A stretch of DNA of 50,397 nucleotides. Origin: a virus. The notes below the pieces were generated by a model. That model searched no databases and was not told the DNA's origin. It saw nothing but the letters and a program-made list of their open reading frames with translations. Positions 1,706 to 48,943 of this stretch are shown here, one piece after another. Location of the stretch: positions 1 to 50,397 of the IMG/VR virus record IMGVR_UViG_3300008516_000100, one strand, 5' to 3'. The position numbers and the translations under genes are program-made. Position 1 is the stretch's first letter. Each line of letters begins with the position of its first letter.

Positions 1706-2461
1706 ATGGCAAAAATGCGAGTCCCAGAAGTTTATCTGGATGAAAAAGAAAAATTAGTAAGATTTCAAGGAAAGTATGTAACTAAGATAAAACGAACTTA
1801 TGATATTCTCAAAGAAACTCCCCAAAAGGAACGAAAACAAAAACTCGTTGAGATTATGGGCTTCGAAGCTCTTAATCATGAGGAGGATTATTTAAAATAT
1901 TATAAAGTTCGGAAGGGCGACATAATAGTAGACGCTGGAGCCCATGTCGGAGTATGGACTCAGAAATTTTCTAAACTTGTTGGTCCCGATGGTTTGGTAA
2001 TTGCAGTTGAACCGGATTTTAGAGCCTTGGGAATGCTTACTCATAATACTGCAAACTTAAATAATGTTAAAATTCTTCCGTATGCTTTGTGGTATACAGA
2101 AGATATTATACCCTTTCAATATGTAGATGCTTCCGGGGGAGTTGGGACTGGTTCTTTAATATATCAGTTCCCGTATTGGCATCCCGTGAGATCTATAACT
2201 TTAGACAAGTTACTCGAAAAATTAAATATTGAAGAAGTAAATTTTGTTAAAATGGATATTGAAGGATCCGAGATACGTGCTTTAGAAGGGATGCAGGAGA
2301 TGATGAAACGTGTAGATGCGATGTCTATTGCAGCTTATCATAAAATTAATAATGAGGGTAAAAAATCCTGGCTTGAGGTTATGCCGATATTACAAGCAAG
2401 AGGTTTTATTACTCGAGTAGAACCGGGCCAGGATGGAGAAATTATCTATGCAAATCGATAA
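1706..2461 (+). CDS. FkbM-family SAM-dependent methyltransferase (copy 1)
   Basis: 251 residues, Rossmann-type methyltransferase. SAM-binding motif I is DAGAHVG (76-82), followed by the acidic EPD (102-104) that normally holds the ribose, and the family hallmark MDIEGSE (183-189). FkbM-family enzymes O-methylate sugars and other small acceptors, so with the glycosyltransferase downstream the likely role is methylation of a glycan on virion or host surface. It is the first of three tandem paralogues and has an extra N-terminal segment of about 60 residues that copy 2 lacks. Its last codons, encoding GEIIYANR, contain both the ribosome site and the start codon of copy 2. Confidence 0.88.
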   Translation: MAKMRVPEVYLDEKEKLVRFQGKYVTKIKRTYDILKETPQKERKQKLVEIMGFEALNHEEDYLKYYKVRKGDIIVDAGAHVGVWTQKFSKLVGPDGLVIAVEPDFRALGMLTHNTANLNNVKILPYALWYTEDIIPFQYVDASGGVGTGSLIYQFPYWHPVRSITLDKLLEKLNIEEVNFVKMDIEGSEIRALEGMQEMMKRVDAMSIAAYHKINNEGKKSWLEVMPILQARGFITRVEPGQDGEIIYANR

Positions 2462-3092
2462 CATGCATAGTCTTCTGTTTAGAACTGCCTCTACAGAAGA
2501 AAATTATATGAAATACTATACTCCAAAAAAGGGAGACCTTGTAATAGACGCTGGAGCCCATGTAGGAATTTATACACAAAAGTTTTCTAGTCTCGTAGGA
2601 AATGAAGGCCTTGTAATAGCAATAGAGCCAGATTACCGGGCAATTGGTTTATTAATTCTTAATACAGAAAACCTAAGTAACATAAAGATTCTGCCCTATG
2701 CCTTGTGGAATGAGGATAAAAAAATTCAATTTCACGTTTATATTAAAACGATCGGGATGAGTTCGTGTGTTTTTAGATATAAAGATCCGGACGATGAGAC
2801 ATATCCAATTTGGGCCAAAAGATTAGATACAATTCTAGATGAGTTAAACATCAAACATGTAAATTTTATTAAAATGGATATTGAAGCTTCAGAGATTCGA
2901 GCTTTAGTGGGTATGACGAAAACACTAAAGATTACGGATGCCCTAGTAATTGCGGCATATCATCGAACAGGTACAGAACCAGATTCTGCGAAGACTTATC
3001 CGGATGTTATAAAAATATTAGAAAATGCTGGTTTTAAAGTTTGGGTTGAAATTGGGCATGACGGAGAGCTAGTATATGCAAACAAAAATTAA
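2448..3092 (+). CDS. FkbM-family SAM-dependent methyltransferase (copy 2)
   Basis: 214 residues from ATG 2448. This start is preferred to ATG 2433 because GGAG at 2435-2438 lies nine bases upstream, exactly the layout at the start of copy 3. Motif I DAGAHVG, IEPD and MDIEASE are intact, so it should bind SAM. It lacks most of the N-terminal extension of copies 1 and 3. It overlaps copy 1 by 14 bases and copy 3 by 17, so translation is probably coupled. Probably a glycan O-methyltransferase; acceptor unknown. Confidence 0.86.
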   Translation: MQIDNMHSLLFRTASTEENYMKYYTPKKGDLVIDAGAHVGIYTQKFSSLVGNEGLVIAIEPDYRAIGLLILNTENLSNIKILPYALWNEDKKIQFHVYIKTIGMSSCVFRYKDPDDETYPIWAKRLDTILDELNIKHVNFIKMDIEASEIRALVGMTKTLKITDALVIAAYHRTGTEPDSAKTYPDVIKILENAGFKVWVEIGHDGELVYANKN

Positions 3093-3870
3093 ATTAAATG
3101 ATCAGGAGAAGTCTGTCTTTATTTCTACTGGAAATCCACCTAATAGGATTGGATTTGAAATAAAAAATGAAGAACTTTATGCTTTGATGAAAATAACGCC
3201 AGAAGATAAACGTTTAGAGACGATTACTTTCAGAGCCGGATATGAATTACTCGGGATGTATCCTGAGTATGCTGTTGGATCACACGATTACGAGAGGTAT
3301 TATAAAGTTCAATCGGGGGATATTGTTATTGATGCTGGAGCTCATGTGGGCATATGGACGGAGATATTTTCAAATGAAGTTGGTCTTGATGGACTAGTTA
3401 TTGCTATAGAACCAGATTTTAGAGCCCTAGGATATTTAATTATGAATACATATTACAAAAAAAATATTAAAGTTATCCCTTTTGGGTTATGGAGTGAGCC
3501 AGACTATGTACCTTTCGGTATTGATCCTTGTCTTGGTACAAGTTCGTATTTTTCTTGGATAAATCGAGGAAAAAATCCAGGGTATCAACTTACTAGAGTT
3601 AATTCTTTAGATAATTACCTAAGAGAATTAAAAATTAGCAAAATTGATTTAATAAAAATGGATATAGAAGGAGCAGAAGTTAAAGCATTAGAAGGAATGA
3701 TAAATACTTTACAAAATACCAAGGCTTTAGCGATTGCGACTTATCATAAGACGATGGAATATCCGGAAGCAACGACGAAAAGAGTTGCAGAAATTTTAGA
3801 GAGTGCAAATTTTAATGTTAGAAAAGAATTTAGCAAAGGAGAAATAGTATACGCAAATAGGAGCGAATAA
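3076..3870 (+). CDS. FkbM-family SAM-dependent methyltransferase (copy 3)
   Basis: 264 residues with DAGAHVG, IEPDFRALG and MDIEGAE motifs, closest in layout to copy 1. GGAG (3063-3066) lies nine bases before the ATG, inside the last codons of copy 2. Its own C-terminus, GEIVYANRSE, uses TAC instead of TAT so the hidden ATG is gone, consistent with it being last of the array; the next gene uses a separate AGGAG site. Three divergent but intact copies suggest different acceptor positions or sugars. Confidence 0.86.
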   Translation: MQTKIKLNDQEKSVFISTGNPPNRIGFEIKNEELYALMKITPEDKRLETITFRAGYELLGMYPEYAVGSHDYERYYKVQSGDIVIDAGAHVGIWTEIFSNEVGLDGLVIAIEPDFRALGYLIMNTYYKKNIKVIPFGLWSEPDYVPFGIDPCLGTSSYFSWINRGKNPGYQLTRVNSLDNYLRELKISKIDLIKMDIEGAEVKALEGMINTLQNTKALAIATYHKTMEYPEATTKRVAEILESANFNVRKEFSKGEIVYANRSE

Positions 3871-3872
3871 GA

Positions 3873-4079
3873 ATGAAAAAATGCTTTATTGAAATAACCC
3901 AAGAGTGGTTGAAAGAGAAAATGGGTCTGCCAAAGGAAGCTGTTATTTTTGGCATTGCCTCTAATAACAATCAAGATACTTTTAGATTTTATATTTGTAA
4001 TTACGGAAATGAAACACCAGAAGGTGCTGTAATAGAACAACGGGAAATAGGACATTGCCCTAAGGAGAACATAACATGA
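3873..4079 (+). CDS. Small hypothetical protein
   Basis: 68 residues; AGGAG (3859-3863) lies nine bases before the ATG at 3873. Soluble, with an N-terminal amphipathic helix (ITQEWLKEKMGLPKEA) and a short beta-rich remainder. Its stop overlaps the glycosyltransferase start by four bases (ATGA), so the two are translationally coupled and may work together. No family recognised. Confidence 0.6.
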   Translation: MKKCFIEITQEWLKEKMGLPKEAVIFGIASNNNQDTFRFYICNYGNETPEGAVIEQREIGHCPKENIT

Positions 4080-5140
4080 GGATTGGCCTTTATAGTACAG
4101 CATCTCTTCAAACAAAACCTGTATTAGAAGGATATGGGGGTGTAGAACCGTTTGTTGGGAGTTTAGCTGAGTATTTTGATGAGAGGGGGCATGAAGTACA
4201 TTTGTTTGCTGCTAAAGGCTCATATGAGCCAAAGCATGGAGAATTACACCCATTTACAAGTAAGGGAGTAATAGAAAATTTAAAAGAAGATGAAATGTTT
4301 CGCTTTTATAAGAGAAAAATTTTTAAGGATTTGGATATCCTTCACGATAATTCTCATTGGCATCATCCGGGAGGAGAATTAGTTCCTGATGTGAAATATT
4401 TATTTACATTACATGCTTTGCAAGTTAATGTCGGTGGATTTAACCTCGAAGAATATAAGTATAATCCAACTTCCCTAAGTTACGATTATGCTAAATTTAT
4501 TAAATGGCTGAATCCTAAAATAGATACCAGAACTGTTCAAGATGGAATAAATTTAAAATACTATCCCTTTAAAAAAGAAAAAGGGGAGCGGTTTTTATGG
4601 TTATCAAGAATTTTTCCTCCAAAGGGAGCACATTTAGCCATTCAAGCAGCAGAAAAAGCAAAAGTTCCTATAGATATTATCGGGGGAAGTCCAATTGATA
4701 TTCCGGGGTATTTGGATAAATTAAAACGTCAATGTGCTCGTTCTAAGTATGCAACTTTTGTTGGGGAAGTTTCCCACAAGGAAAAAGTTAAATATTTACA
4801 AAATGCTCGTGCCGTTATACTACCCTTGAGTCAACTTACAAGGACACCGGAAGGACAAACGAATCTTTGGATTGAGGCAGCTTGTATGATCCCATTAGAA
4901 GCAAACGCTTGCGGAACACCCGTTATTACTTGTCCAAATGGGCTAACAGGCGAGGTTATTGCAGAAGGAATAAACGGATTTATTGCTGTGTCAGTTGATG
5001 ACTTTGTCGAAAAAATAAAACGTATTGATGAAATAGATACTAAAATGTGTAGATGTCGAGCTGAATACTTCTCATTTGATAGAACAGCAGAAGGATTCTT
5101 AAAATTATATAAAGATATTCTGGATGGTATTTCTTGGTAG
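4076..5140 (+). CDS. GT4-type glycosyltransferase
   Basis: 354 residues, GT-B fold. The N-terminal half begins with a beta strand and a glycine-rich GYGGVEPFVGSLAEYF segment (19-34) typical of acceptor-side GT4 enzymes. The C-terminal half has the LWLSRIFPPKG segment (174-184) and an exact EX7E motif (E267, E275: EAACMIPLE) followed by ANACGTPV, the nucleotide-sugar site of GT4 retaining enzymes. It overlaps its neighbours on both sides and follows three methyltransferases, which suggests building and methylating a glycan on tail fibres, capsid or host surface. Sugar donor and acceptor unknown. Confidence 0.88.
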   Translation: MRIGLYSTASLQTKPVLEGYGGVEPFVGSLAEYFDERGHEVHLFAAKGSYEPKHGELHPFTSKGVIENLKEDEMFRFYKRKIFKDLDILHDNSHWHHPGGELVPDVKYLFTLHALQVNVGGFNLEEYKYNPTSLSYDYAKFIKWLNPKIDTRTVQDGINLKYYPFKKEKGERFLWLSRIFPPKGAHLAIQAAEKAKVPIDIIGGSPIDIPGYLDKLKRQCARSKYATFVGEVSHKEKVKYLQNARAVILPLSQLTRTPEGQTNLWIEAACMIPLEANACGTPVITCPNGLTGEVIAEGINGFIAVSVDDFVEKIKRIDEIDTKMCRCRAEYFSFDRTAEGFLKLYKDILDGISW

Positions 5141-8663: not shown

Positions 8664-9202
8664 CATTAGATAGCATTATAAAAGAATATAGTAAAAAGAT
8701 TGTTGCATCTTTAAAAGATTTATATATTGAATCTTATATTAAAGGGGCAAAATCCGTTGTTATTAAAGAACAAAAGGAATCTTTATATGATGAAGCATAT
8801 ATGTATTTTTTAGAACAACAAGGATGGATAGAAGACCATTTTATTAATACTGATTCTGTTGTTCTACACGATAAATTATCTCATGCAATCGCAACGGGAC
8901 AAAATTTTCCCCAATTCTGGGAGGGTGTTCGAGATTCTGGTATGTTTAAGAGACAACGAGCAGATCGAATATTTAGGACAGAAACAAATCGGGCGTTCAG
9001 TGAAGGAACGATTCGACAGTATTTAAAAGAAAATGTTAAAGAGGTTAATATTTTATTAGGTCCGACCCCGTGCCCAATTTGTACTGATTTTGCGATGACA
9101 GGTCCTTATTTAACTAAGGACATCGAAGGGGTATTTCCAATACATCCAAATTGTTCGTGTGTAATTGTAAATGCGGAGGTTTCAAAACCCGGTGGTAGAT
9201 AA
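8660..9202 (+). CDS. MuF-like minor head protein
   Basis: 180 residues, overlapping the portal gene by four bases (ATGA). The C-terminal half has the MuF signature: RTETNRAF, then CPIC (zinc pair) and HPNCSC near the end. MuF proteins are few-copy head proteins that bind the portal and can be ejected with DNA. Shorter than many MuF proteins, with no fused toxin domain. Confidence 0.82.
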   Translation: MTLDSIIKEYSKKIVASLKDLYIESYIKGAKSVVIKEQKESLYDEAYMYFLEQQGWIEDHFINTDSVVLHDKLSHAIATGQNFPQFWEGVRDSGMFKRQRADRIFRTETNRAFSEGTIRQYLKENVKEVNILLGPTPCPICTDFAMTGPYLTKDIEGVFPIHPNCSCVIVNAEVSKPGGR

Positions 9203-9204
9203 TA

Positions 9205-9762
9205 ATGGTATTAGTAAGATTATGGGACGATGTAAATGAAAACTATTTGGTAATCGATAAAGACGGTTGTGCCCAAATAATTCATCATCATAAGCATCTT
9301 TTGCATCAAGGAAAAGCTTTTACGGCCAAGCATATCTGGTACAATCAAGTTGCGGATGCTAATAGTGATATCTTACTTGTAACGGGTGCAACAAAATATC
9401 TACATTTATCCTATGATTATGAATCAACGGCTAAAGCTGAATTTAGTGTTCATGAGGATGCTACTGTTACAAATGCTGGTACTGCCATAACGGCAATAAA
9501 CAGGAATCGACGAGTCACAACTAGTGCTGAAGCAGTAGCAACATATGGTCCGAATGTTTCAAGTACTGGCATTGAATTAAGTGCTAGATTACTTTCGGGG
9601 GAAGCAGGTCTTGTAAGACCTGTATCTGAGGGCACTGAAACGTCGTTTGGTGAATATTTATTAAAACAGTCGACAACCTATCTTTTTAGACTTACCGATA
9701 AGGCGTCTATAACGTCTGACTGTATGGTTGCATTGGCGTGGGATGAGGAATCGACTTCGTAG
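9205..9762 (+). CDS. Virion structural protein, probably capsid-associated
   Basis: 185 residues. Starts with a short strand region, then the His-rich IIHHHKHLLHQGKAF segment (about 26-40) and a beta-rich body with many Thr, Ser and Ala typical of capsid-associated beta-sandwich proteins. Proteins with a similar HH-x-H-x(3)-HQGKAF opening occur next to head genes in other tailed viruses; this is from memory and not tested here. Possibly a head fibre or decoration protein. Confidence 0.55.
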   Translation: MVLVRLWDDVNENYLVIDKDGCAQIIHHHKHLLHQGKAFTAKHIWYNQVADANSDILLVTGATKYLHLSYDYESTAKAEFSVHEDATVTNAGTAITAINRNRRVTTSAEAVATYGPNVSSTGIELSARLLSGEAGLVRPVSEGTETSFGEYLLKQSTTYLFRLTDKASITSDCMVALAWDEESTS

Positions 9763-9770
9763 GGAAATAA

Positions 9771-10286
9771 ATGAAAACAGAAATATGTTATAAATCAATG
9801 GATAAAAATATTCTAGGTGACGTTATTTATCATGATGTTGTTATTTTAAGCCCTGGAGTTTGGAATCAACAGGATAAGGAGAGTCAAATTTATTATCCAC
9901 AGGAGATTTGTTCCCGAGATGCAAAGAATTGGAAGCGATCCTTTATTTATCGAATGCATACTAAACGCAAAGATGGGACTCCGGTTGATTCTTTTAATAT
10001 TGTTGGTATGACTGAAAAGCAACATTTTGATTATATTAAAAATGCAATTGTTGCAGATTTACGAATTATCCCTATAACTCAAAATGCTAAGGATGTAATT
10101 AATCAAATTGATAGAGGCATCATAAAATATTTGTCTCCAGAAGTTAGAACTTGGGACAAGTATAATTATTACAATAAACGCCGGGAAGTATATAAGTTGG
10201 AATTTAATGGCGTTGCACTGGTTATAGATAATCCAGCATGTAAAACAGCTGCAATAAACCGTTTCAGAAAATCTATCGATGTTTAA
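9771..10286 (+). CDS. Possible second HK97-type (S78-like) protease, DUF2213-like
   Basis: 171 residues. The order YRMH (H63), KYLSPE (S122) and KLEFNGVALV-DNPAC (E144) resembles the His-Ser-Glu layout of HK97-type prohead proteases and DUF2213-type proteins. The ending, GVALV-x(2)-NPAC-x-TA, is typical of that fold. A longer protease-scaffold protein (12505) lies downstream, so either two proteases act on the head or one is a non-catalytic paralogue. GGGAAATAA before the ATG provides a weak ribosome site. Confidence 0.5.
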   Translation: MKTEICYKSMDKNILGDVIYHDVVILSPGVWNQQDKESQIYYPQEICSRDAKNWKRSFIYRMHTKRKDGTPVDSFNIVGMTEKQHFDYIKNAIVADLRIIPITQNAKDVINQIDRGIIKYLSPEVRTWDKYNYYNKRREVYKLEFNGVALVIDNPACKTAAINRFRKSIDV

Positions 10287-10314
10287 TGTAAAATAAAAAT
10301 AAAGAGGATATATT

Positions 10315-10854
10315 ATGGCACGAATTCATAATGATGATTACGAGGTTACAAGAGACCTTATTGTTGGTAGAAATGCGACTATCGCTGGAACAGTTTCTGG
10401 TGCCGGATACCGGGATATTACAATGTTCTACAATGCTGGTTTCGCTGTTAGTGATTGGACTAATTCAACTAATGGTATTTATTTGCTAGCTACTAACAAG
10501 ACTGCGATATCAATTAATTTTCCGTTAACGGGTCTTAAAGAAGGAGATATAATTCAAAAATTCCGAGTGCTCGGTGGACTAGAAGCTATCTCTGGGAGTG
10601 CAACAACATTAGATGCTTGTTTGTGGACTGTTACGAAGGCCGCAGCAGCAGATTGTGCAGCGACTTCTATCGGAGCTATTACACAAGTCTCAACAGTTGT
10701 TGACGTTGCAGTGGATTCTGAAAAGGATATTACTGATACAACAGTCGAGGATGATTTACAGTATTTCATTGGTGTAAAGGTTTCTACTCCAAATACTGAT
10801 GAATGTATAGCTATGGTTTCTGGGGTAGAAGCAGATATCAAGCGTCTCATTTAA
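10315..10854 (+). CDS. Virion structural protein, beta-rich
   Basis: 179 residues with GAGGATATATT before the ATG. After a short N-terminal arm (RIHNDDYEVTRDLIVG) that looks like an anchoring segment, the body is Gly/Ala/Thr/Val-rich beta sequence as in decoration or head-fibre proteins. It ends in GVEADIKRLI. Flanked by head genes, so probably virion-associated; exact role unknown. Confidence 0.55.
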   Translation: MARIHNDDYEVTRDLIVGRNATIAGTVSGAGYRDITMFYNAGFAVSDWTNSTNGIYLLATNKTAISINFPLTGLKEGDIIQKFRVLGGLEAISGSATTLDACLWTVTKAAAADCAATSIGAITQVSTVVDVAVDSEKDITDTTVEDDLQYFIGVKVSTPNTDECIAMVSGVEADIKRLI

Positions 10855-10855
10855 G

Positions 10856-10878
10856 CTTATTTAAATGTTTCAATGTTT
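10856..10878 (+). promoter_or_regulatory. TATA-like element plus repeated intergenic motif
   Basis: CTTATTTAAATG has its centre about 25 bases before the ATG at 10884, so it may drive a leaderless mRNA for the methyltransferase. It overlaps AAATGTTTCAATGTTT (10863-10878), a motif recurring in other spacers of the late region. Confidence 0.35.
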
Positions 10879-10883
10879 ATTGT

Positions 10884-12146
10884 ATGTTGATTCTTATGGA
10901 AATAAAGATAATTAAGTTAGATAATAATAACGCAGCGATAAAAATCTTTACAGAACATTCCGATATTTGTGTGATTTCTAATATTGAAGATCTTTCAGAA
11001 GAAGGAAAAAAAGAACTATATAATTCTAAATGGATTGTAAATTGTCCTACATTAGATGATTATAACGAAACAATAAAATTAGCAAAAGAATTGCGCCCCA
11101 AACAATTGTTTATTATGGATATTTCTACCCAAATTGATGAATTTTCTAAAGAGGCCCTTAAATCATGGAGAGGGGATATTCTAAAATCTGGCGATTCTTT
11201 GGAATTAACTGACAAAGCAGATGAGGGAATCTTTTTAGAAGAGAGTCAATGGATTTATCCGTATCCAACGAGTGGTAGTAAGAGATACTTTGAATTAGAT
11301 AAACGGTATCGAATTGAAGGCAGAAAGTTTATTCTCTGTATAAAAAATCTTGCTTATGGGGAATTAAAAATTGGAAAAATTGCTAATTCTGAAGACAAGG
11401 GGAAATTCAAATATCAAATTGAGGAGTTTGAGCCTTTTGAAGAACAGAAATTGTTAGAAATTCCCTCAGAGGCAAGAAAAGACATATTTGTCAATCATAT
11501 TGAGAATTATTATTTTGAGAATCAATTAAAAAGCATATCGGATGAAGAACTAAAAGCTATGAGTCGACAAGATTGGATTGATGCCTGGAAAAAAGATCCC
11601 CATTGGGCGAATTCAATGGAACCCTCTTCCTTGGCAGAATATTTTGTAACTGAGATAAAACGAGAAAAATTAACAGGAACTATTTTGGAAATTGGTTCGG
11701 GTAATGGTCGAGATTCGATATATTTTGGAAAACATGGGTATGATGTAACAGGGATAGATATTTCCCCGGACGCTACAAAAATTGCTAATGAAAATAACGA
11801 TCTATCTAACGTAAAGTTTCAGGTTGGGGATGCTGAGAGGTTACCTTTTAAAGATAACTCATTTGATGCGGTTTATTCCCTATCAGTATTACATTCAACA
11901 GATTTAGAAAAGAGTATTAAGGAATTATCCCGGGTACTAGATTCAGGAGGACTCTCTGTTCTTTATTTATATAATAAAAGTATTTATCCAGATGAAGAAG
12001 AGATAAATTTTAAAATTACAGATTTAGAAAAAATCTTTACTACAAATGAGCTTCAAATTTTGGATAAATGGCGAGATAAAATAGAGGATGAGGATGGAGA
12101 GAAACATATTCATCATCTAGTTATTTACTTGCTAAAGAGAAAGTAA
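10884..12146 (+). CDS. SAM-dependent methyltransferase with a large N-terminal domain
   Basis: 420 residues from ATG 10884, or 416 from ATG 10896; neither has a ribosome site, and upstream frame sequence overlaps the previous gene. The last 170 residues are a class I methyltransferase of the Methyltransf_11 type: LEIGSGNGRDSIYFGKHGYD (motif I), GIDIS, then GDAERLPFKDNSFDAVYSLS and a late RVLDSGG. The first 240 residues are not recognised; they include an alpha/beta opening and a beta-rich middle. Placement inside the head operon with its own promoter-like sequence suggests an inserted cargo gene. The substrate may be a virion protein, a glycan or a host factor. Confidence 0.75.
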   Translation: MLILMEIKIIKLDNNNAAIKIFTEHSDICVISNIEDLSEEGKKELYNSKWIVNCPTLDDYNETIKLAKELRPKQLFIMDISTQIDEFSKEALKSWRGDILKSGDSLELTDKADEGIFLEESQWIYPYPTSGSKRYFELDKRYRIEGRKFILCIKNLAYGELKIGKIANSEDKGKFKYQIEEFEPFEEQKLLEIPSEARKDIFVNHIENYYFENQLKSISDEELKAMSRQDWIDAWKKDPHWANSMEPSSLAEYFVTEIKREKLTGTILEIGSGNGRDSIYFGKHGYDVTGIDISPDATKIANENNDLSNVKFQVGDAERLPFKDNSFDAVYSLSVLHSTDLEKSIKELSRVLDSGGLSVLYLYNKSIYPDEEEINFKITDLEKIFTTNELQILDKWRDKIEDEDGEKHIHHLVIYLLKRK

Positions 12147-38614: not shown

Positions 38615-39514
38615 ATGAAATTTTGTCAGATGTTCGAAGGATATCAACGGGATTTTGGTTGTCCTTCTAGAATACGGATAGATTCTATAAAGGAATTATC
38701 TAGATTAATTGATGATAATGAAGGAGTAAATCCTTGTTTTTTGTCAATTTCATATTATGAGGAAGATACTCCCTATTTAAGATTTATTCCTTTTGATCTT
38801 GATGGGGAGGAGTATCGAGTTCTTAAGGATTCGCAAAAGTTAATAAAAGATTTTGAGGATCGGAATATTCCCTATACTTTAAAATTTAGTGGAAATCGAG
38901 GAGCCCATCTTGTCATTGATTTAGGTTTTAAGCCGGATGAACCACAATTTATCTCACCAAAGATGATGAGAGATATTCAGATGACTTGTATGGAAAGGAA
39001 CAAACTGGAGACTTTGGACTATCATTTGATAGGAAATATTAATGCTTTGTTAAGAATTCCTGGGACTCTTCATGAAAAATCAAAAACTTATTGTACGATA
39101 ATTAGGGAAGAAGGCGGGGAGATTTCATTTACAGAACTTTGTAAACGTTTAGACGTTAAGGAATACGAATATAAATTTTCGAATAACTTTGTGGGAAAAG
39201 AAGCGATCCATCCTTATCCTTGTTTGGAGTATTTTATAAGAGTCCCAAATCCATTAAATTATTGTCGTGTTGCATTTGCAATTTATCGATTGAAACGGGA
39301 AGTAGAACTTGAAGATATTTATAATGAATTGGAGAGTTTTAATTGGGTAGATTGGAAAGAACGTAAAACGAGATATCATTTGAATAAGATTTCTCAAAAG
39401 GGCTACTCTATGCCCAGTTGTAATAAGCTTAGACAATTCGGATTGTGTTTGGGCGGGGATTGTAAGTATGATGATGATAGAATATGGAGATTTATTGAAA
39501 CGTTAGTGAGGTAA
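38615..39514 (+). CDS. Archaeo-eukaryotic primase (PriS-like)
   Basis: 299 residues. AEP motifs are intact: FDLDG with D61 and D63, SGNRGAH (92-98) and, with D135, the LRIPGTLHEKSK segment (146-157). The C-terminal 100 residues are helical with a PSCNKL...GLC-x(4)-C cluster that may hold zinc or Fe-S, recalling PriL or PriCT regions. It makes primers for replication, so this virus does not rely on a bacterial DnaG-type primase. GAGGGC precedes the ATG. Confidence 0.85.
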   Translation: MKFCQMFEGYQRDFGCPSRIRIDSIKELSRLIDDNEGVNPCFLSISYYEEDTPYLRFIPFDLDGEEYRVLKDSQKLIKDFEDRNIPYTLKFSGNRGAHLVIDLGFKPDEPQFISPKMMRDIQMTCMERNKLETLDYHLIGNINALLRIPGTLHEKSKTYCTIIREEGGEISFTELCKRLDVKEYEYKFSNNFVGKEAIHPYPCLEYFIRVPNPLNYCRVAFAIYRLKREVELEDIYNELESFNWVDWKERKTRYHLNKISQKGYSMPSCNKLRQFGLCLGGDCKYDDDRIWRFIETLVR

Positions 39515-42196: not shown

Positions 42197-42739
42197 ATGA
42201 TTTTAATTTTTGAGGGATTAGATAAATCTGGAAAATCAACTTTGATTGATTGTATAGAAGGAATTAAGATTAAGAATTACTATTTGCCGAAGGACGGTTC
42301 CGATGCGGAGCGGCAGAAGATTAAAGATGCTCATCAACTTATACTAGGGATGATAGAAAAATTTAAGGATTCTTCGTATCATGTTATCCTTGATAGAAGT
42401 CCTATCTCTGAAATTGTGTATTCGAAAGTTCGTCGAGGATATGAAGCAACGGATGATCCGGATTGGATGAAAATGGTTCATAGGTTACATGGATTGGGAG
42501 TTCTTGTTTTCTACTGCACGGCAGAAGATGACGAATTATGGCAACGATGTAAGGAGCATGCTGATCCGGACGCTCGAAGGGGAGAAATCAGTGAGTTAAA
42601 AGAACGTTACTTAAAGGTTCTAGGACATGGGAATATTGCTTATCGAGAATTGAATACTAGTAAAACGGGTATTGCCGAATGTCTTCAGGATATTCAATAT
42701 GTTATTGAAAGATTAGGTGGGGAACTTGGAACTAGATAA
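42197..42739 (+). CDS. Thymidylate kinase-like dNMP kinase
   Basis: 180 residues. P-loop EGLDKSGKST (6-15), DRSPISEIVYS (about 67-77) as the DR(Y/S) motif and a late LID-like RRGEISELKERY. Family members phosphorylate dTMP or modified dNMPs to diphosphates. With the neighbouring dCMP-hydroxymethylase-like enzyme it could phosphorylate a modified dCMP, as T4 gp1 does; this is inference. Ends overlapping the next gene by 23 bases. Confidence 0.78.
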   Translation: MILIFEGLDKSGKSTLIDCIEGIKIKNYYLPKDGSDAERQKIKDAHQLILGMIEKFKDSSYHVILDRSPISEIVYSKVRRGYEATDDPDWMKMVHRLHGLGVLVFYCTAEDDELWQRCKEHADPDARRGEISELKERYLKVLGHGNIAYRELNTSKTGIAECLQDIQYVIERLGGELGTR

Positions 42740-43736
42740 AACTTGCCTCCTATCTTTGGGTTATGACTTAGTAAGGAAACCGATTCAGATTATTTCTAAA
42801 CAAGGAGATTTTCAGAAAGAGCTAGAGAATGTTATTAAGGATCAATGTGAACAATATGATAATTTAGCTGTTTGCTTATCTGGTGGGATTGATAGTGCGG
42901 TGATTGCATATTATGCAACTCGTTATGCTAAAAAATTAACGGCGTATACAATGGTGTTTAATTACGACGGTGTTCCTGTTCAAGAGAGTAAATCGTTGGT
43001 TAAATTTCTTGATATTCCTCATAAGATAGAAAAGAAAAGCATTAATCGAATGGACATTGATTCAGCATTGCATCATATTCTTGAAATTTATTATCCTTTT
43101 GATAAAGGATCCTTGATTCCTATGTATTGGATGTTTGATTCTCTTTCAATGGAAAATTTCGACGGGGTTTTATTTGGAGATGGTGCTGATGAACTATTTG
43201 GTGGGTACAATCGGCATTTGAATTTTAATTCATTTTCGTTTCATAATAATATTGAAATTTTTAATGAAGAGGAGATAGAAACTTTGTTTCATTTACGGGT
43301 TAGTTCTAAATTGGAAAAGATCACAGATGACTTCAACAGGGTTCAAACGTTAGATGATTTATTAAATTTGGAATTTAAGTATGAATTCCCCAATGCTCAT
43401 TTATTGAAGATGGAAGCTTTTGCTAGTGAATTTAAAGTTAATACTTTATTTCCATTTCTCGATCAGAATTTTATGAACGTTGCGATGGGGACGAATCCCA
43501 AGATTTCTAACGGCGTTAAAAAAGAACCGTTATTTAATTTGTTTCATCAGATGTATGGCGCTAAACGAACTAAGATTCCTTTAAAGTTTGATTATTTAAG
43601 TTTATTATCTGTGTCTGATTTGACAGGGTATAAAGTGAAAGATAGATTGAAATGGGCTTATCCGTTTGAGAGGAACTATAATCGAAAGATTTGGATTGCT
43701 TATTTGTTAGAGAGATACGAGGAGATTCACGGATGA
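42717..43736 (+). CDS. Asparagine synthetase-like ATP pyrophosphatase without glutaminase domain
   Basis: 339 residues from GTG 42717. SGGIDSA (55-61) is the PP-loop and FGDGADELFGGY (153-164) the second AsnB hallmark. The N-terminal Cys-dependent glutaminase domain of AsnB is absent, so ammonia or another amine must come from elsewhere. Enzymes of this family activate a carboxylate with ATP and form an amide. In the middle of a nucleotide-modification cluster it may amidate a carboxylated base or nucleotide, but an ordinary metabolic or protein-modifying role remains open. Confidence 0.78.
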   Translation: MGNLELDKTCLLSLGYDLVRKPIQIISKQGDFQKELENVIKDQCEQYDNLAVCLSGGIDSAVIAYYATRYAKKLTAYTMVFNYDGVPVQESKSLVKFLDIPHKIEKKSINRMDIDSALHHILEIYYPFDKGSLIPMYWMFDSLSMENFDGVLFGDGADELFGGYNRHLNFNSFSFHNNIEIFNEEEIETLFHLRVSSKLEKITDDFNRVQTLDDLLNLEFKYEFPNAHLLKMEAFASEFKVNTLFPFLDQNFMNVAMGTNPKISNGVKKEPLFNLFHQMYGAKRTKIPLKFDYLSLLSVSDLTGYKVKDRLKWAYPFERNYNRKIWIAYLLERYEEIHG

Positions 43737-44146
43737 ATATAAAAGATACAAGATCAATTGAGATTAAAGGCGATTTATTAGTAGCAATTTTTGCTCGGCA
43801 AAATGAATTACTGAAAAAGTATCAGGAGATTGAAAGGAAAAATGGATTGCTTCAAACAGAGGATATTCCAGTTGATTTAGATGATGCAAAAGGTCAGCAA
43901 AGGTTAAAAGATTTTGCTTGGAGAGTTACTGAGGAACTTGGGGAAGCAATGAATTGTTTGAAGAATAAACCCTGGAAGCAGACACAGATGGAAACGGATA
44001 AGAATCACTATTATGAAGAATTGGCGGATGCATTTCATTTTTTTATTGAACTGTGCATTCTTTCAGGGATTGACGAAAAGAAATTAGCGGAATTATATTT
44101 TAAGAAAAGTTTGGTAAATAAATTTCGACAGAGGAGTAATTATTAA
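43733..44146 (+). CDS. All-alpha NTP pyrophosphatase (MazG/dUTPase-2/dCTPase-like)
   Basis: 137 residues from ATG 43733 (ATGA overlap, GAGGAG upstream). Metal-binding helices show as TEELGEAMN and EELADAFHFFIEL, the ExxE and ExxD pairs of this superfamily. Such enzymes hydrolyse dUTP, dCTP or house-cleaning NTPs to monophosphates. Next to a dCMP-hydroxymethylase-like gene, dCTP hydrolysis (like T4 gp56) would feed dCMP. Substrate not provable by eye. Confidence 0.75.
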   Translation: MNIKDTRSIEIKGDLLVAIFARQNELLKKYQEIERKNGLLQTEDIPVDLDDAKGQQRLKDFAWRVTEELGEAMNCLKNKPWKQTQMETDKNHYYEELADAFHFFIELCILSGIDEKKLAELYFKKSLVNKFRQRSNY

Positions 44147-44667
44147 TGGAAGTAATTCAAAAAGCTGTTGAATCTTGCGTGAAATGTGGTTTGCAATATG
44201 GAAATTCTTCTATTGGTTTTGGAAAGATTGATAAACCATTAATATTTTTTATTGGAACGAATCCATGGGTAGAAAATCATAAGTTTAAAGATGGTCGTGG
44301 AATAACTATTTTAAAAAAGAAATTAGCTGAATGGAAATTCGATGATTTTTTTATGGACAACATTGTAAAATGCCAGATGCCTCATGGAGGACAGAAGCCA
44401 GATGTTTGGCACGCTGAACATTGTATTCAATATTTGAACGATCAAATCGAGAAAATTAAACCCCGTTTTATTATTTGTTTTGGTTATTATGCATCGATGT
44501 ATTTTATTGGGGGATACGCTTCTTGGATGGAATATGATAGTTATATGAGTATTCCCGTGTATACAATTCCGCATTTCTCTTCAATATTATATAAGGGAGA
44601 ACGAGAGCGAATTGATTATTATAAACGATTGAAAGGATTAATCAAGGAATTGAAAAATGAGCTTTAG
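44146..44667 (+). CDS. Family-4/5-like uracil-DNA glycosylase superfamily protein with Fe-S cysteines
   Basis: 173 residues. C11-x2-C14 ... C76-x16-C93 matches the four-Cys cluster of family 4 UDGs. FFIGTNPW (35-41) replaces the usual G-E-A-P-G active motif, and PHFSS near the end stands for the HPS motif. NIVKCQMP is typical of the superfamily. The changed active motif suggests another base or a changed role. Starts in the preceding stop codon. Confidence 0.72.
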   Translation: MEVIQKAVESCVKCGLQYGNSSIGFGKIDKPLIFFIGTNPWVENHKFKDGRGITILKKKLAEWKFDDFFMDNIVKCQMPHGGQKPDVWHAEHCIQYLNDQIEKIKPRFIICFGYYASMYFIGGYASWMEYDSYMSIPVYTIPHFSSILYKGERERIDYYKRLKGLIKELKNEL

Positions 44668-45904
44668 AGCATTGGGCGTAACTTGTGGGATTGGTTCGAT
44701 GTTGATTGGTGCAAAACAAGCAGGTTTTGAGATTGCGGGAAATATTGAGTGGCGAGGATACTGTCATACAGGGACTTTTGAGCATAATTTTCCCAATGCT
44801 TTTATAGTTAAAAAGTATGATGATTTAACAGAAGAGCAGAAAAAAGATATTCAAGGAATTGATTTAGTTATGGGTCATCCGGATTGCGGTAATTATAGTA
44901 AGATGACACAAAATAAGAATCTTCGAGGGAATCCTGGAGATATTCCTTTGTTTGTTTCTTTAATAAAAAAAGTAAACCCAAAAATATTCGTGATGGACAA
45001 TCTTCCCAAATGTTTGATTGCTTATACAATTAAACAATGGCATAGAGAACTTTCAAATTATGATTTATTTCCCGAATTGGTATGCAATGCTGCATATGGG
45101 AATTCTCAAAAGCATAGAAATCGGTTTTTTATGGTTGGGGCAAAGAAAAATCAAAAATTTATTTTTTTGCCAACAGAAATAGAAGATATTCCAAGTATTG
45201 ATAAATGTTTTGTTAATCTTCCTTATGAAAGAGATATTCCTGAGATTAATCATGAGCATCGTTCTCTTGATGAGCAAAGCGATTATATTTCTTATAAAAA
45301 AGATCGGAGGAAGCTTACATATAAAGAAGTGTCAAGAATTTTTTTAGATATACCTAAAGTACTTGAAGAACTTAAGGAAGAAAATATTTCTGAACAGCGG
45401 TTAAGAAAACTCGGGTTTAGAAGAAATCTTTCAAATTCTAGGGTTTGGAATCCCCCCTATAGAACGAAAGAGGGAGAGATTAGACTTCGAATTGGCAAAT
45501 GTAAATTGAATTGGGGAGATCAAGCGTTTTTAGTTACAGGGGGGGAAAATTTGTATCACCCTGAAACTGCGATGCCTCTCACTTGTAGGGAACGAGCTAG
45601 AATTCAGGGTTGTCCGGATAATTTTTATTTTGTTTTGCCCAAAAAACATGGTTCTAAGATGTGGAAACAAACGGGGAAATTTATGCCTGTTCAATTTTGT
45701 CGATATATTTCAGGGCAAATAATGATTCATTTAATGGGGTTAGATTTTAAATCTTCTGGAGAGCGATTAATAAAATCGAATAGATATATCGATGACGCTA
45801 AAAAATGGTATTGTCAAAACATCGGATATGGGGGCATTCAAAATAAGGTTTGTGAAGCTTGTTGGTTGAGTTGCAAAGAGGGTTTTAAAGATGAGAATAT
45901 TTAA
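44657..45904 (+). CDS. C5-cytosine DNA methyltransferase-like protein with atypical motifs
   Basis: 415 residues. Motif I LGVTCGIGSMLIGAKQAGF (6-24), motif VIII QKHRNRFFMVG (151-161) and motif IX LTCRERARIQGCPDNF (308-323) are clear. The catalytic motif IV reads HPDCGNYS (C77 kept, the Pro before it is Asp), and motif VI reads MDNLP (D114-N115) in place of ENV. A C-terminal CEACWLSC adds a likely zinc site. The changes point to altered chemistry or substrate. It overlaps its neighbours by 11 and 14 bases. Confidence 0.75.
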   Translation: MSFRALGVTCGIGSMLIGAKQAGFEIAGNIEWRGYCHTGTFEHNFPNAFIVKKYDDLTEEQKKDIQGIDLVMGHPDCGNYSKMTQNKNLRGNPGDIPLFVSLIKKVNPKIFVMDNLPKCLIAYTIKQWHRELSNYDLFPELVCNAAYGNSQKHRNRFFMVGAKKNQKFIFLPTEIEDIPSIDKCFVNLPYERDIPEINHEHRSLDEQSDYISYKKDRRKLTYKEVSRIFLDIPKVLEELKEENISEQRLRKLGFRRNLSNSRVWNPPYRTKEGEIRLRIGKCKLNWGDQAFLVTGGENLYHPETAMPLTCRERARIQGCPDNFYFVLPKKHGSKMWKQTGKFMPVQFCRYISGQIMIHLMGLDFKSSGERLIKSNRYIDDAKKWYCQNIGYGGIQNKVCEACWLSCKEGFKDENI

Positions 45905-46583
45905 TAATTGTTTAGAAATGATTAAAGAAGTTGAGCGGGATCTTTTTGAAATGGGCATTAAATATCAATCTGCAACCGTTCAAGATTTTGATGCTTCTAA
46001 AGATAAAGCTTTTGAAACCTTGGAATTGAATGGTTATGCTTATAAATTAACTTCGATGGATCAGTTAGATGAAATGCTTGATTATATGAAAATTTCGAAA
46101 TTATGGGTGGAAGCAGAACATATTGAGCGATTAGATCCAGGATTTGAAAATCCGGGGAAAGCGTGGAAATTGTATAGGGTTTGGGAACAATATCTTCATG
46201 ATGGAATTTTTCAATATACTTATAGTGAACGTCTTCGTGAGCAATTAGCTTATGTTATTCGGGAACTGAGAAGAAATTCTAATACTCGTCAAGCAGTTCT
46301 TACGATTTATGATCGGTATCAAGATATGATGAATTGGGGGGGAAAGGCTAGAGTTCCTTGTAGTTTATCTTATCAATTTATTATTAGAAATAGGAAACTT
46401 CGTTTAATTTATTCGATGAGGAGTTGTGATTTTCTTAAACATTTTGCTGCTGATGTTGCTTTGGCTTTATTATTGCAAGGAGAAATTGCTAAAGAATTAA
46501 AGTTGAATCCTGGAACGTTTACTCATTTTTTGGGAAGTCTTCATGCTTTTCACGGGGATATGAAAGACCGGGGAATCTATTAA
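45891..46583 (+). CDS. Thymidylate-synthase-fold enzyme, dCMP hydroxymethylase-like
   Basis: 230 residues. VPCSLSYQF holds the catalytic Cys157; MRSCD (176-180) supplies the phosphate-binding Arg and Ser; GSLHAF holds H218. In thymidylate synthases RSCD is followed eight residues later by the invariant Asn that selects uracil; here that position is D188. An Asp there is the known mark of dCMP hydroxymethylases such as T4 gp42. The usual HLYS-type Tyr is Phe. Predicted to add a one-carbon unit from methylene-tetrahydrofolate to dCMP. Confidence 0.72.
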   Translation: MRIFNNCLEMIKEVERDLFEMGIKYQSATVQDFDASKDKAFETLELNGYAYKLTSMDQLDEMLDYMKISKLWVEAEHIERLDPGFENPGKAWKLYRVWEQYLHDGIFQYTYSERLREQLAYVIRELRRNSNTRQAVLTIYDRYQDMMNWGGKARVPCSLSYQFIIRNRKLRLIYSMRSCDFLKHFAADVALALLLQGEIAKELKLNPGTFTHFLGSLHAFHGDMKDRGIY

Positions 46584-46695
46584 ACACTTATGAGGAGCTT
46601 TGTAAACAAGTTGTAGGACTTAAAAATATTTCTTCTAATAGTAACTATTGTATTTAATTTAAAAGTGCTTAAAACGCATGTACGGAGTTTGAAAA
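46584..46695 (+). other. Spacer before the dCMP deaminase
   Basis: 112 bases without a gene in an otherwise overlapping gene run. AAAAGTGCTTAAAACGCATG (46661-46680) resembles the 5' region at 551-572. A TATTTAATTTAAAA stretch (about 46651-46664) is TATA-like and would start RNA near 46680, close to the ATG. Possible internal promoter. Confidence 0.3.
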
Positions 46696-47187
46696 ATGGT
46701 AGATAGGATAAATTGGGATGATTACTTTCTTAAGATTGTAGATACAGTTGCTGAACGGGCAACCTGTAGTCGTGGTAGATCTGCGTGTGTTATTGTAAGC
46801 GACGATAGATGCATTCTTTCTACAGGATACGTTGGAAGCCCACACGGTTTCTCTCATTGTGATGATGATGGTCATTTATTTATTAATCAAATGGACGAAG
46901 ATGGAAAAACAATTTCTCAACACTGTGTTCGAACTATACATTGTGAAGTGAATGCTGTTGCTCAAGCGGCCCGAAGAGGAATATCACTTAACGGGGCTAC
47001 AGTTTACATTACTATGGAACCCTGTTTTAGTTGCGCAAAGATGCTTATTCAATGCGGGATTAAAAGGGTTGTTTGTAAATATAAATATCAATATGGTGAA
47101 TTATCTAGATATACTTTAAAGAGAGCAGGCGTTTCATTAGTTGTAAGGGAAAATGAGATATTAGGGTATAACAATGTTCTTGAATGA
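46696..47187 (+). CDS. dCMP deaminase
   Basis: 163 residues. Zinc-site motifs HCEVNAV (82-88, His and catalytic Glu) and EPCFSCAKM (108-116) are intact. Further Cys and His around 24-55 may bind a second zinc as in other viral dCMP deaminases. It converts dCMP to dUMP, so beside a dCMP-directed enzyme it would balance the cytosine and thymine pools. Overlaps the polymerase gene by 14 bases. Confidence 0.86.
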   Translation: MVDRINWDDYFLKIVDTVAERATCSRGRSACVIVSDDRCILSTGYVGSPHGFSHCDDDGHLFINQMDEDGKTISQHCVRTIHCEVNAVAQAARRGISLNGATVYITMEPCFSCAKMLIQCGIKRVVCKYKYQYGELSRYTLKRAGVSLVVRENEILGYNNVLE

Positions 47188-48943
47188 ACTATCTACGAAT
47201 ATTTTAGAGTGGATTGATTCATTAAAGATAATTTCTTTGGATACTGAAACGATTTCGCTTGAGGATAAAACTTTAAACGGATTTAGTTTTGCTGGAATTC
47301 GAGATCAGAAACTTGTAGGATATTATGTTCCTTTAAATCACTCGAAAGTAAAGAACATGGATTTTGGGGATGCTTGGAAATTATTGAATAAAATTTGTTT
47401 TGTTCCGCAGATAATATTTCATAATTATTCTTTTGATGCTCGAGTTTTAGCTAAATACGGATTGGAGGTGAAATATCCTCCACAAGATACTTTGATATTA
47501 GCGCAACTTTGGGATGAGAATAGATCCCATCGATTGAAGGCATTGGTAAAAGATTATTTAAAACGACCGATGTTATCTTATCATGATATTTGTGGAACGG
47601 GGAAAAAGAAAGTTAAGTTTCAAGATGCTGATCCAGCTCTTCTTGAAATTTATGGTACTGATGATGCTATTCGTACTTATGAATTATTTGAATATTTATA
47701 TCCCAAAATGATGAAAGATGAGGATTTGGCTTTCCTTTATCATTATATTGAAAGACCTTTAACGGAGGTTGTTCGAGACATGCAAGTATCGGGTATTCGA
47801 ATAGATACTTTGATGGTTAAGAACATTGAAAAAATTTGTAAGGAAAAATGTGATGCTTTACAGAAAAAGATTATAAAGAAAGTTGGCGATATAAATATTA
47901 ATAGTACAAAACAATTACGAGAGTATTTTATCGATAAGTGTCACGCTCCTGTAGTAAAGGCATCAAAGAAAACGGGAATCCCGTCTGTTGATAGGGAAAC
48001 TTTAGAGAAATATTCTGAGATGTTTCCAGAAGCTGCGTGGATTTTAACTTATCGAAAATATTATAAGATTTATACTTCATTTGTTCCTGCTTTGAGTTCT
48101 GAGAGAATATATGCGTCATTTAATCAATCTGGGACAGTTAGTGGAAGATTTTCTAGTTCTAATCCTAATATGCAGAATATTCCACGCGAGGACGAGTTTG
48201 GAATTCGGAAGGCTATTCTTCCGGACGAGGATCAGTTGATTATTTGCGCGGATTATTCTCAAATTGAGTTACGTATTTTAGCACATTTTAGTCGAGATCC
48301 GGTATTAGTGAAGGCATATCAAAACGGGGAAGATATTCACCAAATAACGGCGGATGCTTGTGGATGTAGCAGAATGATGGCGAAAACGATTAATTTTGGG
48401 TTGATGTATAGAATGTCTTCCCGGACGTTAGCGAAGCAATTGAAGATTAATCAAAAAGAGGCTCATATGTATGTGGAAGGATACTTTGAATCGTATGAGG
48501 CTATTCCAAGATTTTACGAGGATGTTATTAAAGAGTCTATTCAACATGGATATATTCGAACACTTTATGGAAGAAAACGACGATTAACGAGAAATTATTA
48601 TCAAAAAGATCACGGTGGAAAGTACCATGAGATGTCTAGTATTATTAATTCGAAGATTCAAGGGACTTCTGCTGATATTATTAAATATGCGATGGTTAAA
48701 ATGTTTCAACCTTTAAACGCTCTTGGAGCTCGAATTCTTTTAACTGTTCATGATGAGGTTGTTGTAAGTACTTCGAAAGAGAATTTATTATCTTGTTGCA
48801 AAATTATAAAAGAAGCGATGCTTGAAGTAGCTCAATTATCTATACCTGTTGAAATAGATATTAGGATAGGTCGAACTTGGGGGGAGGCGAAACATGGTCC
48901 AACCCCGCAGGAATATGATGCGAATCCGCTGATATTAGGGTGA
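47174..48943 (+). CDS. polA: Family A DNA polymerase with 3'-5' exonuclease
   Basis: 589 residues, no 5' nuclease domain. Exonuclease: SLDTET (21-26), HNYSFDARVL (83-92) and YGTDD (160-164). Polymerase: motif A ADYSQIELR (359-367), O-helix SRMMAKTINFGLMYR (399-413) with R400, K404 and F408, and motif C TVHDEV (524-529). The residue after the conserved Tyr412 is Arg, where Gly is usual. It is the replicative polymerase of the virus; cellular archaea use families B and D, so it is of viral or bacterial origin. Confidence 0.93.
   Translation: MFLNELSTNILEWIDSLKIISLDTETISLEDKTLNGFSFAGIRDQKLVGYYVPLNHSKVKNMDFGDAWKLLNKICFVPQIIFHNYSFDARVLAKYGLEVKYPPQDTLILAQLWDENRSHRLKALVKDYLKRPMLSYHDICGTGKKKVKFQDADPALLEIYGTDDAIRTYELFEYLYPKMMKDEDLAFLYHYIERPLTEVVRDMQVSGIRIDTLMVKNIEKICKEKCDALQKKIIKKVGDININSTKQLREYFIDKCHAPVVKASKKTGIPSVDRETLEKYSEMFPEAAWILTYRKYYKIYTSFVPALSSERIYASFNQSGTVSGRFSSSNPNMQNIPREDEFGIRKAILPDEDQLIICADYSQIELRILAHFSRDPVLVKAYQNGEDIHQITADACGCSRMMAKTINFGLMYRMSSRTLAKQLKINQKEAHMYVEGYFESYEAIPRFYEDVIKESIQHGYIRTLYGRKRRLTRNYYQKDHGGKYHEMSSIINSKIQGTSADIIKYAMVKMFQPLNALGARILLTVHDEVVVSTSKENLLSCCKIIKEAMLEVAQLSIPVEIDIRIGRTWGEAKHGPTPQEYDANPLILG

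Follow-up and report, generated by a model that had tools for sequence, protein, structure and literature searches.

Gene Organization of the Locus

The DNA analyzed here comprises positions 1 to 50,397 of the IMG/VR virus record IMGVR_UViG_3300008516_000100, and this entire 50 kb stretch, which carries the terminase, portal and tape measure genes of a tailed virus, is called the window below. Our subject is a block within it, 42197-48943, whose genes are intact and nearly gapless open reading frames (ORFs), all on the plus strand, and very probably encode together a pathway for the modification of cytosine in the viral DNA. The block begins with a thymidylate-kinase-like P-loop deoxynucleoside monophosphate kinase (42197-42739), a candidate kinase for modified deoxycytidine monophosphate (dCMP); it matches the PHROG thymidylate kinase family phrog_761 (2.3e-15) and TIGR00041 (9.7e-9), its match to Pfam PF02223 (9.8e-6) being slightly short of the cut-off. 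There follow an AsnB-type ATP-dependent amide ligase that has the synthetase domain only (42717-43736; PF00733, 7.5e-27) and an all-alpha nucleoside triphosphate pyrophosphatase (NTP-PPase) of the dUTPase_2/T4 gp56-like kind (43733-44146; PF08761 dUTPase_2, 3.6e-8; phrog_12184, 3.9e-38). The latter is a candidate dCTPase with visible EExxE and ExxD motifs, whose start is better placed at the ATG of 43733 than at the TTG of 43691. Next come a stand-alone family-4 uracil-DNA glycosylase (UDG)-like protein (44146-44667), an atypical homolog of the C5-cytosine methyltransferases (MTases; 44657-45904; PF00145, 1e-30), a tail-less thymidylate synthase (TS)-fold enzyme that is a candidate for dCMP modification (45891-46583; PF00303, 9e-15), a zinc dCMP deaminase with its HxE and PCxxC motifs (46696-47187; PF00383, 8.1e-24; phrog_174, 1e-36) and a family A DNA polymerase (PolA; 47174-48943; PF00476, 9e-101). 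Every gene that an initial annotation of this DNA had named proved to be an intact ORF with a family match.

A TS-Fold Enzyme That Probably Selects Cytosine

From its sequence, selection of cytosine by the TS-fold enzyme is well supported. Cys157, Arg177, Asp188 and His218 are invariant in all 127 sequences on which our residue counts for this family are based. The asparagine at position 177 that is the hallmark of thymidylate synthase is replaced: Asp188 aligns at Asn177 of the Escherichia coli enzyme and lies 11 residues past Arg177, which is the spacing between R166 and N177. Mutation of this Asn to Asp switches the E. coli enzyme to dCMP (cited in PMC8670742), and the MetaGPA study found Asp177 TS, dCMP deaminase and the PRA-PH/MazG domain to be enriched in cytosine-modified phage DNA (PMC8670742). 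When an AlphaFold2 model of the enzyme (pLDDT 94) was compared with the PDB, ranks 1-7 were all occupied by MilA, a CMP hydroxymethylase (TM-scores 0.81-0.84, E 3e-16), and neither the phage dCMP hydroxylase nor any of the listed thymidylate synthases exceeded 0.77; MilA was also the best phmmer match. MilA, with which the initial annotation had suggested a structural comparison, is hence the closest solved fold. The functional set that this annotation had likened to that of T4 is indeed present in one operon: a kinase, a dCTPase/dUTPase, a TS-fold enzyme of the Asp type (Asp in 127/127) with MilA as its best fold match, and a dCMP deaminase.

The group that the enzyme would install on C5 is most likely hydroxymethyl. 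We prefer this product because the C-terminal tail of TS is absent (mostly 10-24 residues separate His218 from the end of the protein) and neither dihydrofolate reductase (DHFR) nor ThyX was found in the window, whereas DLP4, a single comparator of the Xp12 type whose chemistry is inferred from its kinship to Xp12, has the tail, an Asn and an adjacent DHFR gene. One related locus, L083, has beside its intact TS gene a degenerate copy (9307-10005) in which Thr replaces the Cys and Asn the Asp, perhaps a heterodimer partner.

The Atypical Methyltransferase and Its Neighboring Ligase

The MTase homolog is built on the C5-MTase plan: an AlphaFold2 model (pLDDT 85) has PDB fold matches to 3g7u, DNMT1, M.HaeIII and CmoX (8yf3). 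Over a set of 60 sequences, the catalytic Cys (Cys77 in the window) is kept in 59 of the 59 that have a letter there and both arginines of the QxRxR motif (Arg154 and Arg156 of this protein) in 60 of 60; the cofactor-ribose Glu (Glu31) and the GxG motif are largely kept. At other sites the family is unorthodox. The residue before the Cys is usually Glu, Lys or Asp, not Pro; the Glu of the motif VI ENV is replaced by Asp (Asp114) in all 60; and the position of M.HhaI Asn304, which lay outside the search patterns, is Lys in 56 and Arg in 4, the window protein having Lys341. An ordinary C5-MTase was judged unlikely on account of these two uniform substitutions. Lys341 aligns on Arg350 of CmoX, whose published numbering we confirmed in the S-B43 sequence. 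In CmoX this arginine contacts the carboxylate of carboxy-S-adenosylmethionine (Cx-SAM), an M.MpeI engineered to use Cx-SAM carries Lys at the equivalent position, and the published survey of CmoX required Arg there (PMC12783734). All four Arg-type MTases are without AsnB in the DNA examined. In locus L094 the MTase gene (8810-10972) is interrupted directly before the catalytic Cys by an intein-like insertion (HPE / C...N / CGNFS), which suggests constraint on this residue.

The AsnB-type ligase has the expected ATP-site motifs, SGGIDS (residue 55) and GDGADE (residue 154). The N-terminal Cys glutaminase domain carried by all 14 distinct operon relatives is missing from it, and tblastn detected no glutaminase elsewhere in the window. 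Because the ligase lacks this domain, the window virus may well employ an amine other than glutamine-derived ammonia. Two such forms of ligase occur together with CmoX, a glycine-using one with no glutaminase and a second group that has it (PMC12783734). The window ligase is only 24-30% identical to its operon relatives, whereas the neighboring proteins are 47-75% identical to those of locus L001, the NTP-PPase being at the upper limit (75%). A scan that used the window AsnB alone as query found no viral relatives of it.

Conservation of the Module and an Alternative Second Enzyme

Relatives of the TS-fold enzyme were gathered from 80 IMG/VR loci plus named phages, and relatives of the MTase from 58 loci. 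A gene order recurs around TS (AsnB, NTP-PPase, sometimes UDG, MTase, TS, deaminase, PolA), with NTP-PPase, deaminase and PolA as the steady neighbors. Since this same order is found across many virus contigs, the cluster at 42197-47187 is not a product of chance and is a real module. Of the MTase loci, the 45 that span 12 kb or more contain TS in 44 cases, AsnB in 38, the deaminase in 40, PolA in 27 and CmoA in none; AsnB and MTase coincide in 14 of 92 TS loci, with 2.9 expected, although such counts include related viruses and are not independent events. The AsnB-like ligase and the C5-MTase, which the initial annotation had included in the cluster, are thereby supported as parts of it.

In 58 viruses the MTase is replaced by a TS-like paralog, at times as a tandem pair. 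This family, phrog_13667 (gp47 of phage Muddy and gp46 of phage Cozz), has no Pfam match and adjoins TS in 58 loci. It is likely a divergent TS fold, because it has an invariant Cys and an Arg followed 11 residues on by an Asp, the catalytic spacing of TS, and because hhalign against the TS profile gives a probability of 66%. Unannotated copies lie in L003 (7660-8649 and 8642-9430), L095 (8081-8974) and L096 (8615-9493). MTase and paralog occur together in 0 of the 92 TS loci, with 11.3 expected, and in a quick TS tree there are 8 switches between them, of which the well-supported branches force fewer. We read the two as interchangeable second steps that act on the same first product. L095 represents Muddy gp44-49, in which a TS core of the same Asp/Arg type is annotated as thymidylate synthase and a kinase likewise lies upstream of the NTP-PPase. 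The DNA of Muddy may be cytosine-modified; we found no report of modified cytosine in it in the literature.

A Proposed Two-Tier Pathway

We propose that the block is a two-tier cytosine hypermodification cassette, in which a T4-like first step is followed by a second step performed by the MTase and AsnB, and we put the probability of this reading at about 0.55. Residues, fold and gene neighbors all point to the first tier; it is the anatomy of the proteins that suggests the second. The TS-fold enzyme would take dCMP as its substrate and put a one-carbon group, most likely hydroxymethyl, on C5, and the kinase together with host enzymes would convert the modified dCMP to the triphosphate. Meanwhile the NTP-PPase would destroy dCTP and the deaminase would turn leftover dCMP into dUMP, such that PolA, incorporating the modified dCTP, would produce DNA in which cytosine is replaced. 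The atypical MTase, with its C6-attacking Cys and its basic residue at the site where CmoX holds its carboxylate cofactor, would then attach to the base, now in DNA, a group that bears a carboxylate, and the AsnB-type ligase would convert this carboxylate to an amide. In most relatives the ammonia would be derived from glutamine, and the window ligase would draw on a different amine, which might be an amino acid, the kind of substrate that CmoY takes. The end product would be expected to block host nucleases. In its most specific form the proposal becomes tentative: an MTase fold might have been turned from methylating cytosine to building on hydroxymethylcytosine (hmC) with a carboxylate-bearing donor, the ligase then amidating, in this virus with an amine other than ammonia from glutamine, to give an undescribed amide-bearing cytosine genome-wide.

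Several observations weigh against this proposal, in addition to the shared ancestry among the viruses counted above. The dCMP hydroxymethylases have been defined by an Asp/Glu at the third residue upstream of the Cys together with a Ser or Thr placed two positions ahead of the Tyr (PMC6400193). In the window enzyme these positions are Arg154 and, before Tyr111, Tyr109; the former is Arg in 126 of 127 sequences, the exception being phage PAU (Glu), and the latter is Tyr or His in 126 of 127. This signature having failed, a simple copy of the T4 pathway was rejected, and T4-type hydroxymethylation as the initial annotation had stated it is not supported, the more so as TS-fold Asp enzymes are also reported as dCMP methylases (Xp12 type) or hydroxylases (titles of PDB 9iqu and 9iqc); hydroxymethyl as the C5 product is therefore only proposed. 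For the MTase, both the SPPC motif and the active-site Glu are absent (the window protein reads HPDC and MDNL), M.HaeIII and 3g7u resemble the protein more closely than CmoX does, and CmoA was not found in the 20 records searched with TIGR00740 and the S-B43 protein as queries. Proximity of CmoA to CmoX is common in phages, and not universal. With SPPC, the active-site Glu and CmoA all missing, identification of the MTase as CmoX was rejected. A further difficulty is that all cytosines would already be substituted at C5, which leaves no free site for a simple C5 carboxymethylation.

Because the MTase would meet a C5 that is already substituted, we keep as a serious rival, albeit an unlikely one, a second tier directed at the hydroxymethyl carbon itself. 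The Cys of the MTase would add to C6 of hmC and water would be expelled to give an exocyclic methylene, which would capture an amino acid or amine held by Lys341; AsnB would then amidate the carboxylate of this adduct, and Cx-SAM would be unneeded. Such chemistry would account for the constant partnership of the MTase with an Asp-type TS and for the failure to find CmoA; the Glu or Asp that usually stands beside the Cys and the motif VI Asp could suit a C5-substituted base, and the mutually exclusive alternative to the MTase is another TS-like enzyme with Cys, Arg and Asp. To our knowledge it has no natural precedent, however, and the retention of Glu31 and GxG suggests that a SAM-like cofactor is still bound.

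Two further explanations appear less probable still. The TS-fold enzyme could be a dCMP methylase of the Xp12 type, making 5-methyl-dCMP and thereby replacing cytosine with plain 5-methylcytosine. The Asp by itself is enough to give TS dCMP methylase activity (cited in PMC8670742), and the water-activating Asp/Glu of the dCMP hydroxymethylases is absent; the tail, the Asn and the DHFR gene of DLP4, all lacking here, speak against this, and we consider it distinctly improbable. Finally, the TS homolog could supply dTMP in plain nucleotide metabolism and sit by coincidence next to an ordinary orphan C5-MTase. The dCMP deaminase, the dUTPase_2 protein and the TMPK-like kinase would also fit a route from dUMP to dTTP, but Asp188 is invariant where enzymes acting on dUMP carry Asn, the pairing with AsnB and MTase is recurrent, and the MTase motifs are non-standard in 60 sequences; we give this explanation very little credence.

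Relation to Known Systems

The pathway as proposed shares with that of T4 (gp42, gp56, gp1 and Cd) the same four functions, the cytosine-selecting Asp and a tail-less TS-fold enzyme. It differs in the residues at Cys-3 and before the Tyr, as described above, and in its second tier, which in T4 depends on a glucosyltransferase whose action on hmC is established and here is the MTase-AsnB pair. For this pair the closest precedent is CmoA-CmoX-CmoY of Synechococcus phage S-B43, in which CmoX and the AsnB-like CmoY make carboxymethylcytosine and then its glycine amide (PMC12783734). Both systems place a basic residue at the carboxylate site of a C5-MTase homolog and adjoin to it an AsnB-type ligase without a glutaminase domain; the window lacks CmoA, SPPC and ENV, its MTase is of the M.HaeIII-like sort already noted, and it is joined to an Asp-type TS.

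Other comparisons bear on the first tier. The MetaGPA clusters that make 5-carbamoyloxymethylcytosine (PMC8670742) likewise combine Asp177 TS, dCMP deaminase, PRA-PH/MazG and a second enzyme whose target is the C5 group, but that enzyme is a carbamoyltransferase and not an MTase-like protein with AsnB. MilA (PDB 5jnh) and, from phage HY126, AfhB (PDB 9iqu), which are among the best fold matches, share the TS fold and the cytosine-selecting Asp; identity is about 20%, both have Asp/Glu at Cys-3, MilA acts on CMP and AfhB is titled a dCMP hydroxylase. The TS proteins of L104 and L105, chosen as hydroxymethylase comparators, were not taken as stand-ins for T4 gp42, since they range from close similarity to near identity with AfhB. 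In Mycobacterium phage Muddy (gp44-49) and Gordonia phage Cozz the kinase, NTP-PPase, Asp/Arg-type TS, deaminase and PolA have the same order, with the paralog phrog_13667 and not MTase plus AsnB. Each half of the cassette hence has a precedent; we did not find the joining of an Asp/Arg TS to a Lys-type MTase and AsnB described in the mostly open-access literature searched.

Other Genes of the Window and the Viral Host

The initial annotation had seen in the 44146-44667 product an Fe-S UDG-like protein. It is a relative of the family-4 UDGs (PF03167, 1.1e-11; NF040953, 7e-14, below the cut-off) with an N-terminal CxxC, but the canonical GEAPG motif of that family is replaced by GTNPW. The stand-alone proteins of the window, L007, L010 and L014 have G[TM]NPW and PHFS[SA] and no GEAPG, whereas UDG domains fused to PolA in other loci mostly keep GEAPG. 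At the other end of the window (1706-5140), three tandem methyltransferases, one of them confirmed as the FkbM type, precede a glycosyltransferase, possibly for modification of a surface or DNA glycan.

An archaeal host, which the same annotation had implied by writing of an archaeal-type virus, is possible. The primase (38615-39514) is of the archaeal/eukaryotic type, its only matches in phage collections being Haloarcula (haloarchaeal) tailed viruses, and Rad51 and ERCC4 domains occur in the window; this affiliation rests on few genes, and against it the terminase has its best matches in Bacillus phages and PolA is bacterial-like. In L001 the module lies beside helicase and primase ORFs that by eye look bacterial-type. 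A host scan of genomes returned a lone contig of a Myxococcaceae metagenome-assembled genome, which shares both its length and its match with an IMG/VR virus contig and so gives no sure host.

If the proposal is correct, a single operon couples the replacement of cytosine throughout the genome, effected at the nucleotide level, with an MTase/AsnB decoration of the base by a carboxylate or amide. This operon is present in dozens of uncultivated viruses, and its core also occurs in phages available in culture, Muddy and Cozz among them, in which the first step is testable now. New DNA bases of this kind would be relevant to the evasion of restriction and CRISPR and as a source of enzyme tools.

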